A DNA stretch of 36,269 nucleotides from a virus. Shown piece after piece: positions 20,833 through 36,269 of this stretch; positions within the stretch are counted from its first letter, which is position 1; every line of letters begins with the position of its first letter. The stretch lies in the IMG/VR virus record IMGVR_UViG_3300037104_000269, positions 1-36,269 of that record. One strand, 5' to 3'. The notes below the pieces were generated by a model. It searched no databases. It was not told the DNA's origin and worked only from the letters and a program-made list of their open reading frames with translations. The translations under genes were made by a program, and so were the position numbers.

Positions 20833-21363
20833 ATGAAAACTAAAGAAAAGATTACACTATCACTTATCAGGTCATTCAAACCTTGTTATGACCCTAAAGA
20901 TATCGGATTTATCGAGCCTAAAGGTATCACACCATTAGGTTTTATCGAAAAATACAGGGATAAAGTAAAAGAACAATCGGATATAATCTGGCTATTGTGT
21001 CGAAATGAATTTATGACCGAAAGGGAACAAAGACTGTTTGCCGTATGGTGCGCTCTCGAATCTTTTAAACTGCAAGAAAAGGTAGACGAAAGAAGTATTG
21101 AAGCGGTCAATGTAGCCGAAAGATTTGCAAATGGGACAACTACTAATGAAGAATTGTCTGCCGCAAGGTCTGCCGCATGGTCTGCCGCAAGGTCTGCCGC
21201 AAGGTCTGCCGCATGGTCTGCCGCATGGTCTGCCGCATCTGCCGCATGGTCTGCCGCAAGGTCTGCCGCATGGTATGCTGCATGGTATGCTGCATGGTCT
21301 GCCGCATCTGCCGCATCTGCCCAAATTGATAGATTAGTCGAAATGTTTAAAGAAAATAACTAA
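20833..21363 (+). CDS. Imm5-like 'putative immunity' protein with SAAW/SAAR repeats
   Basis: The 176-residue protein has IIWLLCRNEF, then FAVWCALESF, then VDERSIEAVNVAERFANG and NEELSAARSAAW. This matches my memory of the Imm5-like 'putative immunity protein' family, found in bacteria and phages with Ala-rich tails. From about residue 109 to 165 it is a run of four-residue units SAAW, SAAR or YAAW, broken by three-residue SAA units. The tail is encoded by a 12-bp DNA repeat that could change length by recombination. A TAACTTTA box lies 12 nt before the start. The function of the family in phages is unknown to me. Confidence 0.65.
   Translation: MKTKEKITLSLIRSFKPCYDPKDIGFIEPKGITPLGFIEKYRDKVKEQSDIIWLLCRNEFMTEREQRLFAVWCALESFKLQEKVDERSIEAVNVAERFANGTTTNEELSAARSAAWSAARSAARSAAWSAAWSAASAAWSAARSAAWYAAWYAAWSAASAASAQIDRLVEMFKENN
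21157..21320 (+). repeat. 12-bp tandem repeat inside coding sequence
   Basis: Units close to TCTGCCGCATGG or TCTGCCGCAAGG repeat about a dozen times, with some 9-bp units lacking the last codon. All unit lengths are multiples of three, so gain or loss of units changes protein length without a frameshift. Both strands have long open frames here only because of the repeat. Confidence 0.85.
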
Positions 21364-22730: not shown

Positions 22731-23039
22731 ATGAACTTCAAACAACGAAAACTAAAAGGTTTCGGAACAATTACCGAAACCGAGATATCAACGGGAAAAT
22801 GGTATTTGCCTATTGAATTTTTCCCGGATTACTCTAATTTAACCATGAAATTGAAAGAGATTAGCATTGATGATAGGATGATTTTGAAAGAACGTATTTT
22901 TCTCGATATTATGGCGCAGAATAAAATCATCTCGAAATACACAACGAAGCTAAATTTGGTAAACAAAACAGGTCTTCTGATGCTACTTTGCCGCCGGGAA
23001 ACTATGACAAAATTATTTGAACTTGAAAAAACATTATAA
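22731..23039 (+). CDS. hypothetical protein ending at the cassette junction
   Basis: The 102-residue product (MNFKQRKLKGFGTITETEIS...) is mixed alpha/beta with a basic C-terminal helix (LMLLCRRETMTKLFELEKTL). Its stop codon TAA lies inside TTATAAC at 23034-23040, the left boundary of the cassette-like segment. The gene may therefore end naturally there or have been shortened by the insertion. No family is recognised. Confidence 0.6.
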   Translation: MNFKQRKLKGFGTITETEISTGKWYLPIEFFPDYSNLTMKLKEISIDDRMILKERIFLDIMAQNKIISKYTTKLNLVNKTGLLMLLCRRETMTKLFELEKTL

Positions 23040-23050
23040 CGGCTGCAGGT

Positions 23051-23395
23051 TTGGTAGCCAATTTTTTATATTATGTGTTAGCAAATCGGGCTTTTTTTGA
23101 TGATGAATGGCAGTTTCAACAACTTAAATTCAATCGTAAAGAATGGCTCGACAAAGATGGGAAAGACGATAAGTTTTATAATCTAAAATATGTACAGTAT
23201 GAGAAACAACTTGGTGAAGAAGATGCAGCAATTGAAGTATGTTATCGCTACAAAACGGATGATGGCGAAAACTATAAGTTGTTTGAAACTTCGTGTGAAT
23301 TGCGTATCGGAACTGAGTATATAAAAATCAATACTGATAAGGTTTACAAACTTCGAGAATTATACAAAACTATCACAGGGCAGCGACTTCTTTAG
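23051..23395 (+). CDS. cassette-borne hypothetical protein (no ATG start)
   Basis: An open frame of 114 codons from TTG 23051; GTG 23075 is an alternative, and no in-frame ATG exists. The product is charged and aromatic (NRAFFDDEWQFQQLKFNRKEW, ...EVCYRYKTDDGENYKLFE), protein-like throughout, and ends KTITGQRLL just before the first hairpin. No family is recognised. The lack of ATG suggests either a real alternative start or a gene whose 5' end was lost. Confidence 0.5.
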   Translation: MVANFLYYVLANRAFFDDEWQFQQLKFNRKEWLDKDGKDDKFYNLKYVQYEKQLGEEDAAIEVCYRYKTDDGENYKLFETSCELRIGTEYIKINTDKVYKLRELYKTITGQRLL

Positions 23396-23401
23396 CCTAT
23401 T

Positions 23402-23499
23402 TGCTAACGGTGGGGCTATGCGCCTGTTTTGCCTGCCGAAAACTGTCAATTTACAACAAAACTATATGGGCAAAATGGCGTATTAGCCCGTGTTATAAC
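23402..23499 (+). repeat. attC-like imperfect hairpin 1
   Basis: The left arm from TTGCTAACGG and the right arm ending GTTATAAC pair as TAAC/GTTA, GGGCTA/TAGCCC, CGCC/GGCG and TTTTGCC/GGCAAAA, about 22 pairs with small bulges on one side, around a loop of about 37 nt. The outer AAC...GTT, the bulged stem and the size of about 98 nt are those of integron attC sites. The recombination point would be G23492^T23493. Confidence 0.55.
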
Positions 23500-23549
23500 C
23501 AGTGCTTATTTTATAATTATCTAAATATTAACAATTTAATTTTAACAAA

Positions 23550-23825
23550 ATGGAAAAAGACACAGTATTATTAGACGTTGAAAAATACAACGAACTAAGA
23601 GATTTTAAACAAAAAATTGAAGAAGGTAAAACCATTGTAATAATTTCAGGATGGAATTATTATCGTAAAGATTTTATTACAACTGAAAAAGCATTAGAAG
23701 AAATTGCAGAAGCAAATAAACTTCTTCAAAAGGAAAATGAAGAATTAAGAAAGCCAAAAGAAATAACACTTAATGACATAAAGAAAATGTCATATTGGGA
23801 ATTTCGTAAATGGCGTAAATCCTAA
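23550..23825 (+). CDS. cassette-borne small coiled-coil protein
   Basis: The 91-residue product (MEKDTVLLDVEKYNELRDFK...) has a central helix IAEANKLLQKENEELRKP and ends IKKMSYWEFRKWRKS. It is the only gene in the second cassette-like unit, which runs from G^TTATAAC at 23492/23493 to the second hairpin. It lies well within the unit and ends 6 nt before the hairpin, as cassette genes do. No family is recognised; small accessory or toxin/antitoxin-type functions are common in cassettes. Confidence 0.6.
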   Translation: MEKDTVLLDVEKYNELRDFKQKIEEGKTIVIISGWNYYRKDFITTEKALEEIAEANKLLQKENEELRKPKEITLNDIKKMSYWEFRKWRKS

Positions 23826-23831
23826 TTTTTC

Positions 23832-23880
23832 AACTCAATGCAGGAACTATCTTCGGAGCGTTCTTGCATTGGTTATAACG
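23832..23880 (+). repeat. attC-like imperfect hairpin 2
   Basis: CAAC at 23832-23835 begins an arm that pairs with 23861-23875 (GTTCTTGCATTGGTT): fourteen pairs, one mismatch and one extrahelical T at 23836, loop of about 12 nt. The right end is again GTTATAAC (23873-23880). It is short for an attC site (about 50 nt) but shares the AAC...GTT ends and bulged stem. Confidence 0.5.
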
Positions 23881-23910
23881 TATGTATACCGTAATATTGC
23901 ATATATAATT

Positions 23911-24093
23911 ATGAATTTAAAAAGCAATAATATAATACATTACAAATTAAGCGTAAATCAAGATAAAGCGTTACTTAATTTACGAAAAATTGGTTATAAT
24001 AAATCAAAAATAATTAACTTAGCATTAGACGATTATTTATACAAAAATTACAGAAAATTTATTAACGAAGAAAAAATTAAATTACCTTTTTAA
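23911..24093 (+). CDS. small RHH-like hypothetical protein
   Basis: From ATG 23911 the product is 60 residues: IIHYKLSVNQDKALLNLRKI, then KSKIINLALDDYLYKNYRKF. A beta strand followed by two helices is the ribbon-helix-helix layout of small DNA-binding regulators. Upstream codons from 23869 cover the cassette junction and are unlikely to be translated. It is the first gene after the cassette-like segment. Confidence 0.5.
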   Translation: MNLKSNNIIHYKLSVNQDKALLNLRKIGYNKSKIINLALDDYLYKNYRKFINEEKIKLPF

Positions 24094-28949: not shown

Positions 28950-29168
28950 ATGACAACAAATCAGAAAAGTGTTATCATAGCACTGAAAAACGGAACAATG
29001 ATTTATTTATTTTCAAATCCATTGATGTATAGACTTGGTAAATTAGGTAGGTTTTTAAATTGGGATTGGTGCAATAAAATGATTAGTGATGGCTATTTTG
29101 AAACAACCGACACAATTTCGAGCAGATGGAATGAATTTACATTAACAGAAAAAGGCAAACTATTATGA
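28950..29168 (+). CDS. small winged-helix-like protein
   Basis: This 72-residue protein (TNQKSVIIALKNGTMIYLFS..., KMISDGYFETTDTISS then FTLTEKGKLL) ends with a pattern of 'helix, strand, TLTEKG' common in winged-helix proteins. DNA binding is inferred. It overlaps the next gene by ATGA. Confidence 0.5.
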   Translation: MTTNQKSVIIALKNGTMIYLFSNPLMYRLGKLGRFLNWDWCNKMISDGYFETTDTISSRWNEFTLTEKGKLL

Positions 29169-34938: not shown

Positions 34939-36195
34939 ATGGAAAATCTCGAAACATTGGCAAAAGAACTTAACGAAAAGTTCGATGCTTTCAAAAAAGA
35001 AGTTGGCGAAAAAGCCGACACAAAATCAATTTTAGAACTAAGAACTATCGTTGATGGTTTTGACTTCAAAGGATTGGAAGAAAAACATTCAGCTGAAATT
35101 ACCGAACTAAAAGCCGGATTTCAGAAACAAATTGATGAAATCGGAATTAAACTATCCGTTAAATCTCAACAGAAAAAAGAATCTAAAACATTCAAACAGG
35201 CTTTAGTTGACATTTTTTCGGGCGATGAGTTTAAAAAATTCGCTGAAAAATCAATAAGCAAAACAAAACCGATTGAAATTAAACTTGCCGGCGATATGCT
35301 GGAAAGCGGAAATCTTAACCAGGATGGTGTTGCTCCGGTAATTTTACCCGACCGCAGGATTAACCCACTGATGTATGTAGATCGTAAATTCAACTTACGT
35401 GATGCCATTGCCGTTGGTACCACAACCTCAAACACTGTTGATTTCGTAAAAGAAGAAAACTACCAAGATGGAGTTGCTATGCAGGTAGAAGGAAACGCCA
35501 AAGGACAAAGCGAATTTGATTTAACAGAAGCATCTGTTAAAGTTGAAACTATCGCAACTTTCTTCCGTGTTTCTCGCCAGATGCTTGATGATATAAGTTA
35601 CTTAGCTTCTTATATTTCTAATCGCGCATCGAAAAAACTGCGCAACAAAGAAGATCAACAAATTTTGTTTGGTAATGGCACAAGCCCACAGATTACTGGT
35701 GTTGCTAAAAATGCAACTGTTTTTGCTGCTGGTGTTTTTGCCGGCAATGTTCCTGGAGCAAATGAATATGATGTATTAAGGATTGCTGTAAGTAACCTGA
35801 ATGTAGCTTACTATTCAGCTTCTTTGGTCATCGTTAATCCTGTTGATTCCGCTAAAATGGATTTGATCAAAGATTTAATTGATAATTACCTGTTGCCACG
35901 TTTTGTGACTGATTCTGTAACCGGTGTTAAATCATTCATGGGTTTACCTGTATTTGAAACTACCGCGATGCCTGCCGGTAAATTCTTAATAGGTGACTTC
36001 CAAAACGGTGTTGAGTTACTCGACCGTCAGGGATTGAATGTTCAACTTTCTGATTCTGACGCTAATAACTTTACAACCAATAAAGTAACTATCAGAATTG
36101 AAGAAAGAATAGCACTCCCGATTTATAGGGATGAAGCTTTCATTTACGGTGACTTTGATACTGCCATTAAAGCAATTGATAAAGCTATTTCATAG
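34939..36195 (+). CDS. major capsid protein (HK97 fold)
   Basis: The 418-residue protein starts with a charged coiled coil (about 1-75; LAKELNEKFDAFKKEVGEKA), typical of the HK97 delta/scaffold domain removed by the prohead protease upstream. The shell region includes TSNTVDFVKEENYQDGVAMQ, SVKVETIATFFRVSRQMLDD, the loop LFGNGTSPQITGVAKN and EERIALPIYRDEAFIYGDFD, all typical of Phage_capsid (PF05065). It forms the icosahedral shell. Its 3' end recurs at the left end of the window. Confidence 0.97.
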   Translation: MENLETLAKELNEKFDAFKKEVGEKADTKSILELRTIVDGFDFKGLEEKHSAEITELKAGFQKQIDEIGIKLSVKSQQKKESKTFKQALVDIFSGDEFKKFAEKSISKTKPIEIKLAGDMLESGNLNQDGVAPVILPDRRINPLMYVDRKFNLRDAIAVGTTTSNTVDFVKEENYQDGVAMQVEGNAKGQSEFDLTEASVKVETIATFFRVSRQMLDDISYLASYISNRASKKLRNKEDQQILFGNGTSPQITGVAKNATVFAAGVFAGNVPGANEYDVLRIAVSNLNVAYYSASLVIVNPVDSAKMDLIKDLIDNYLLPRFVTDSVTGVKSFMGLPVFETTAMPAGKFLIGDFQNGVELLDRQGLNVQLSDSDANNFTTNKVTIRIEERIALPIYRDEAFIYGDFDTAIKAIDKAIS

Positions 36196-36269
36196 GTGAT
36201 AGAATTATAAAATTAAGCCGGGCTTTTAAGTTCGGCTTTTTTTTTGTAGTTTTACTATATGAAGATATT
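36063..36269. repeat. terminal redundancy, right copy
   Basis: The right end repeats bases 1-207, with A at 36142 where the left copy has G at 80. It includes the end of the capsid gene, its terminator, and the first 11 bases of the glycosyltransferase gene (36259-36269). Confidence 0.9.
36215..36245 (+). terminator. rho-independent terminator after capsid gene, second copy
   Basis: Same nine-pair hairpin and T run as at 153-183, here at the end of the complete capsid gene. In the closed circle there is only one such terminator. Confidence 0.85.

Follow-up and report, generated by a model that had tools for sequence, protein, structure and literature searches.

Integron-like cassette array of a Bacteroidota-type phage: units probably exchanged at the R'' side of their hairpins

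The window, i.e., the whole 36,269-nt stretch analyzed here (IMG/VR record IMGVR_UViG_3300037104_000269), carried a 207-bp terminal direct repeat (1-207 = 36063-36269, one G/A mismatch at position 80), which points to a complete genome. Its genes included a terminase, a portal, a capsid and an ERF annealase. The terminase matched many Bacteroidota phages, the single best match being a Rhodobacteraceae phage, and both portal and terminase matched Lillamyvirus and Muminvirus proteins. Judged from its sequence, the window is a complete phage of Bacteroidota type. No gene for a tyrosine recombinase or an integron integrase was found in it, and an Rfam scan of the window returned no match. An overlapping repeat of ~95 bp (21153-21247 and 21225-21316, 90% identical) was located inside an early gene (20833-21363).

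Two short genes were found downstream of a small phage gene, embedded among hairpins and AAC and GTT boxes (Table 1). Homologues of gene 1 and of unit 2 were retrieved from a 36.6-kb phage contig (G001) and a 14.4-kb contig (G002), respectively, and a third contig (G003) was retrieved through hairpin 2. The first-pass annotation had read the segment as two cassettes, each a gene followed by its hairpin, delimited by three copies of TTATAAC. The three copies were present (starting at 23034, 23493 and 23873), with 27 in the whole window for 15 expected, so that the 7-mer alone means little. The outer two copies could be retained as delimiters. The middle one lies on the inner R' side of hairpin 1, and the boundaries were placed at AAC 23038, 23406 and 23877, those of unit 1 by analogy with breakpoints in Polaribacter phages P12002L and P12002S and in Lillamyvirus.

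Table 1. Features of the cassette array and its flanks in the window (a slash marks the cut position).
Feature	Position	Strand	Evidence or remark
Upstream phage gene, 102 aa	22731..23039	+	no significant match in Pfam and PHROGs; TAA stop inside left TTATAAC
Left boundary TTATAAC (AAC 23038-23040), putative left exchange site of the array	23034..23040	+	identical 7-bp junction repeat in Lillamyvirus unit gains
Unit 1 hairpin (stem 0), decayed, nearly loopless	23038..23079	+	score 13.5
Putative mobile unit 1, cut A/AC	23039..23406	+	homologue L001/L004 (G001), 91% nt identity up to R'' AAC
Gene 1, 114 aa, no family match	23051..23395	+	88% aa identity to L001 (G001)
Unit 1 R'-type start GTTAGCAAATCGGG	23077..23090	+	start/end complementarity
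Unit 1 R'' end CCTATTTGCTAAC, able to pair with unit 1 start	23396..23408	+	
attC-like hairpin 1, predicted to travel with gene 2	23406..23494	+	stem score, fold, shuffles
Putative mobile unit 2, cut A/AC	23407..23877	+	G002 homologue, 90.8% nt identity over 23490-23880
Unit 2 R'-type start GTTATAACCAGTGC	23492..23505	+	start/end complementarity
Gene 2, 91 aa, no family match, coiled-coil-like by eye	23550..23825	+	92% aa identity to L002
Hairpin 2, internal 3' hairpin of unit 2	23832..23874	+	conserved in G002 and G003
Unit 2 R'' end GCATTGGTTATAAC; putative right exchange site (AAC 23877-23879)	23866..23879	+	
Proposed attI-like right flank GTATGTATACCGTAATATTGC	23880..23900	+	resembles other array right ends weakly; inferred in window
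Small protein, ribbon-helix-helix-like by eye, directly 3' of array	23911..24093	+	

Hairpin 1 was recovered with the one-sided bulges and AAC...GTT ends described for it earlier (~20 pairs), and hairpin 2 with its extrahelical T (~13 pairs). The stem score of hairpin 1 (39.4) was the best among all AAC..GTT pairs in the window and was reached in 4 of 600 whole-genome shuffles, both strands considered. Hairpin 2 had been taken for the attC site of the second cassette, a role contradicted by G002 and G003, where the same hairpin was followed by an R'' box and then by a separate large attC-like hairpin. The 3' half of stem 0 aligned without gaps to the G001 hairpin preceding the same gene. With stem 0 decayed and hairpin 2 not an attC site, the window harbored one good attC-like site, while G001, G002 and G003 each harbored several of the same build (at least four per contig).

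attC-like folds were seen in the window, the three contigs, P12002L and Lillamyvirus. Hairpin 1, like over 25 related sites, could fold as a single strand and had R''/R' (AAC...GTT) and L''/L' boxes together with spacers and extrahelical bases; the box spacing varied from site to site. The extrahelical bases were mostly on the gene-5' arm. Under the classic IntI rule, extrahelical bases on this arm predict cutting at R', the side opposite to the one observed in related phages (see below). Extrahelical bases were considered as the determinant of polarity, and the folds were not decisive. A sense-strand G.T bias in one hairpin set (54:18, p 2.6e-5) did not recur among the Lillamyvirus hairpins (31:25) and could reflect mRNA hairpins.

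Unit starts and unit ends were complementary to each other. In the window, 12 to 13 of 14 nt could pair (GTTAGCAAATCGGG with CCTATTTGCTAAC, GTTATAACCAGTGC with GCATTGGTTATAAC). Over 20 units, the 14 nt from the starting GTT and the 14 nt ending in AAC shared a mean of 12.1 complementary matches, compared with 7.5 when ends were shuffled between units; the observed mean was reached in none of 2000 shuffles. In 12 of the 20 units, the complementarity ran for exactly 10 nt, broke at position 11 and then resumed, a pattern that may mark a recombinase binding site. This relation is that of R'' and R' in integron cassettes, where its usual length is 7 bp; it is longer here.

The homology of the window units with other viral contigs stopped at the unit ends. 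That of unit 2 with G002 started at GTG/TTATAACC and ended at GGTTATAAC, and that of unit 1 with G001 ended at TTTGCTAAC; beyond these limits, the neighbors differed between the window and both contigs. Window unit 2 shares its 5' leader and its 3' hairpin with a unit on the reverse strand of G003 (L046, 15361-15908), where they enclosed a different gene; this suggests that the outer shell was conserved and the gene replaced. Related phages with the same genes and no hairpin or TTATAAC boundary, which the first-pass annotation had named as contrary evidence, were the opposite of what was found. Neither gene 1 nor gene 2 matched any of 84,980 species genomes in a short-pattern search, able to detect close relatives only, and the cassette proteins were not found among isolate phages. 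The absence from species genomes, together with close homologues in viral contigs, points to shuffling of units from phage to phage, in place of the capture from bacterial integrons that had been proposed initially.

Comparison of related phages shows precise gain, loss and relocation of cassettes. Flavobacterium lillamy9 phages were retrieved through a G001 cassette protein that has a 92.8% identical counterpart in them. A 439-bp unit, 100% identical between lillamy9-1 and lillamy9-3, occupied 6080-5642 in one phage and 2475-2037 in the other. The donor site was perfectly healed in lillamy9-3, where the unit was found at the constant site at the array 3' end (target TTATAAC/TACAATATTACATGAT). 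Other clean gains or losses of whole units in Lillamyvirus and Muminvirus were bounded by TAAC repeats. Precise excision, donor healing, a constant 3' target and a hairpin moving with its downstream gene can thus be read from the relatives. An array scan of Pseudoalteromonas phage H101 and of MW202573 gave no clear array.

The side of exchange was placed in the AAC of R'', on which five lines of evidence agreed: the lillamy9 relocation and the TAAC-bounded differences given above, the P12002L and P12002S arrays, the ends of G001, and the reading of genes through their hairpins. Between P12002L and P12002S, seven homology-block edges fell at AAC (R'') and none at the GTT of R'. In the circular G001, the contig ends overlapped in two versions, one lacking the last unit (CTTAATTGCGTATAAC/TACATTG) and one with a 582-bp unit inserted after TAAC, i.e., presence and absence of a cassette within one sample, as an assembly bubble (L003 1-225, L004 17817-18627). 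In G001 (gene 1), P12002L and the window (VANFLYYVLANR), coding sequence covers the 3' arm of the hairpin together with the R' box, so that an R' cut would split the genes; the frame of window gene 1 includes that arm and GTGTTAGCAAAT. The unit of exchange thus appears to be TA/AC-hairpin-GTT-gene-TA/AC. Exchange at the G/TT of R', with a unit made of a gene and its downstream attC, was not what P12002L/S, Lillamyvirus and G001 displayed, and we infer the same for the window.

The 3' ends of arrays were conserved as well. All visible Bacteroidota array ends stopped in R'' without a hairpin (the window, two in G001, G002, two each in P12002L and P12002S, eight in Lillamyvirus and Muminvirus). 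The right end TACAATATTACATGAT was kept in all eight Lillamyvirus and Muminvirus phages read, after four different last cassettes. A right end of ~69 nt was present in two copies in P12002L (~37266 and ~29242) and in a single one in P12002S. The right end TAACWAYATTRTAWRCGC was common to G001 and G002, and its pattern with an A/T-rich tail was found in IMG/VR in those two phages only. This constant sequence after the last AAC seems to behave as an attI-like site, located after the last gene of the array and not at a 5' end with genes pointing away. A ribbon-helix-helix-like small gene followed the attI-like end of several arrays (window 23911-24093; L005 5357-5542, minus strand; P12002S near 28990). 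The small gene after the G002 array resembled the window product (32% identity, shared C-terminal IKLPF). A regulator or accessory factor is possible.

No integrase was found in the array-bearing phages. Neither tyrosine recombinases (PF00589) nor serine recombinases were detected in the window, G001, G002, G003, P12002L, P12002S, lillamy9-1 or mumin6-4, and the integron integrase model TIGR02249 matched none of these eight records. Genes common to at least four of the eight phages were structural genes and methyltransferases, with no other shared enzyme. These two results together make the host the probable supplier of the recombinase.

The segment is best explained as a two-unit integron-like cassette array with R''-side exchange, insertion at a 3' attI-like site and a recombinase acting in trans (probability of about 0.78). 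A site-specific recombinase, for which an IntI/Xer-type tyrosine recombinase of the host is the likeliest candidate, would act on a folded single strand; the unit would be excised, presumably as a circle, by joining of two AAC (R'') boxes and inserted at the attI-like site after the last AAC, at the array 3' end. The enzyme, the strand used, the single-strand folding and the circular intermediate belong to the model, and the window array would work like those of its relatives given its matching anatomy. Removal from the first to the last TTATAAC would leave, as had been noted earlier, a single copy and an intact upstream stop codon, the remainder being ACATTATAACGTATG and that stop. The empty site expected in a relative of the window phage is one intact ATTATAACGTATG, i.e., the single site ATTATAACGTATGTATACCG. 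In IMG/VR, no close relative was retrieved with the upstream gene and the capsid as queries, hence no empty site, and 35 ERF-bearing loci displayed neither a flanking-gene homologue nor an array. Points against this explanation are that no close relative was retrieved in which an empty site or movement of the window units could be seen, the decay of the first hairpin, the weak match of the right flank, the side on which the extrahelical bases lie and the absence of a recombinase gene among the phages tested. The initial proposal of integron-like cassettes with attC-like sites in a phage is kept, the terminase and portal matching Bacteroidota phages and the units being mobile; the role of hairpin 2, the middle boundary and the bacterial capture are given up.

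Exchange without any site-specific recombinase, through replication template switching or single-strand annealing by phage annealases (ERF, Rad52-like, RecT) that would join TAAC homologies at hairpin bases, appears unlikely. Such annealases were encoded in the window, G001 and G002, no recombinase family was found in the tested phages, and the junction homology was just 3-12 bp. However, the constant insertion site, the cut-and-paste of whole units, the start/end complementarity and the one-sided use of hairpins are not predicted by annealing.

A classic integrase-less attC cluster, made of bacterial-integron cassettes (gene and downstream attC) exchanged by IntI at the G/TT of R', is slightly less probable again. 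The attC-like folds with AAC/GTT boxes, spacers and extrahelical bases are those of such clusters. Tetrasphaera phage TJE1 looks fully classic, and IntI1 in E. coli recombined one of the P12002L sites, which were called in divergent directions (PMC9892861). Nevertheless, all dated events in Bacteroidota phages broke at the AAC of R'', with the hairpin going with the downstream gene, the arrays terminated in R'' without a hairpin, and the window genes were absent from the genome collection in the pattern search. For Lillamyvirus and P12002, the classic reading is already contradicted by the breakpoints.

Non-autonomous single-strand transposon units moved by an HUH (Y1, IS200/IS605-like) enzyme, inserted 3' of a tetranucleotide with a hairpin beside the left cut, are very improbable. 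IS200/IS605 elements insert 3' of a fixed tetranucleotide, which the geometry TAAC/hairpin-gene-TAAC/ resembles. Against this, the Y1 transposase (PF01797) was found in none of the eight records, a right-end hairpin was absent, and start/end complementarity with head-to-tail arrays at one site is integron-like. Least probable of all is that the hairpins between these small genes are ordinary intergenic ones of a phage, serving as terminators or as RNA processing sites, and immobile in the window: no movement was observed within the window itself and one hairpin is decayed, but homologous units lie in other contexts with ends at the same boxes, related systems display relocation, and both hairpin 1 and the start/end complementarity stood out in shuffle tests.

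Returning to the preferred reading of an integron-like array served in trans, we lean slightly towards a broader version, in which mirror-image integrons would be common to Bacteroidota phages. A host recombinase would cut the gene-sense strand at the hairpin 5' base, the hairpin would move with the gene behind it, and genes would be added at the operon 3' end, so that phages would have a pool of genes to exchange, with anti-restriction functions among others. Units other than those of the window encoded methyltransferases, a GNAT-type gene and a PAPS-reductase-type gene. In the Flavobacterium Lillamyvirus and Muminvirus phages, which carry moving units, several units encoded DNA methyltransferases. 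Methyltransferase content was tied to plating efficiency in these phages, and LMO9 isolates without one methyltransferase plated poorly on host strain LMO6 (Nilsson et al. 2020, PMC7077304); neither cassettes nor gene order came up in a text search of that paper. Cassettes may tune the resistance to restriction, and lytic phages might thereby tune host compatibility through cassette exchange.

Phage-borne integrase-less attC clusters (CALINs) are already known, including those of P12002L and TJE1 (Qi et al. 2023, PMC9892861). The clusters of that study and the window have in common attC-like hairpins, small cassettes and the absence of an integrase, and the array anatomy of P12002L is that of the window. 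The right end of the actinobacterial phage TJE1 is a complete attC, unlike those of Bacteroidota arrays. In its available text, the study treats phage clusters as classic cassettes and describes neither relocation nor exchange on the R'' side nor an attI-like 3' end, and the open-access literature searched held no report of these in phages. Relative to that literature, the reversed exchange side, the attI-like 3' end and the visible relocation are new. Static attC-like hairpins of a few phages would thus become an active gene-shuffling system, with moves visible between near-identical isolates having cultured hosts, by which phages can exchange accessory genes, DNA methyltransferases among them. 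The question raised is which recombinase uses hairpin sites with a side preference opposite to that of IntI.

As in integrons (IntI, attI, attC), each site of the arrays is a single hairpin with R and L boxes and each unit holds one gene; excision is precise, one insertion site is preferred, and unit starts and ends are complementary. The arrays differ in that exchange appears to occur in the AAC of R'' instead of the G/TT of R', the hairpin precedes its own gene, genes overlap R', no intI is present in the record, and the preferred site lies at the 3' end, with genes pointing toward it.
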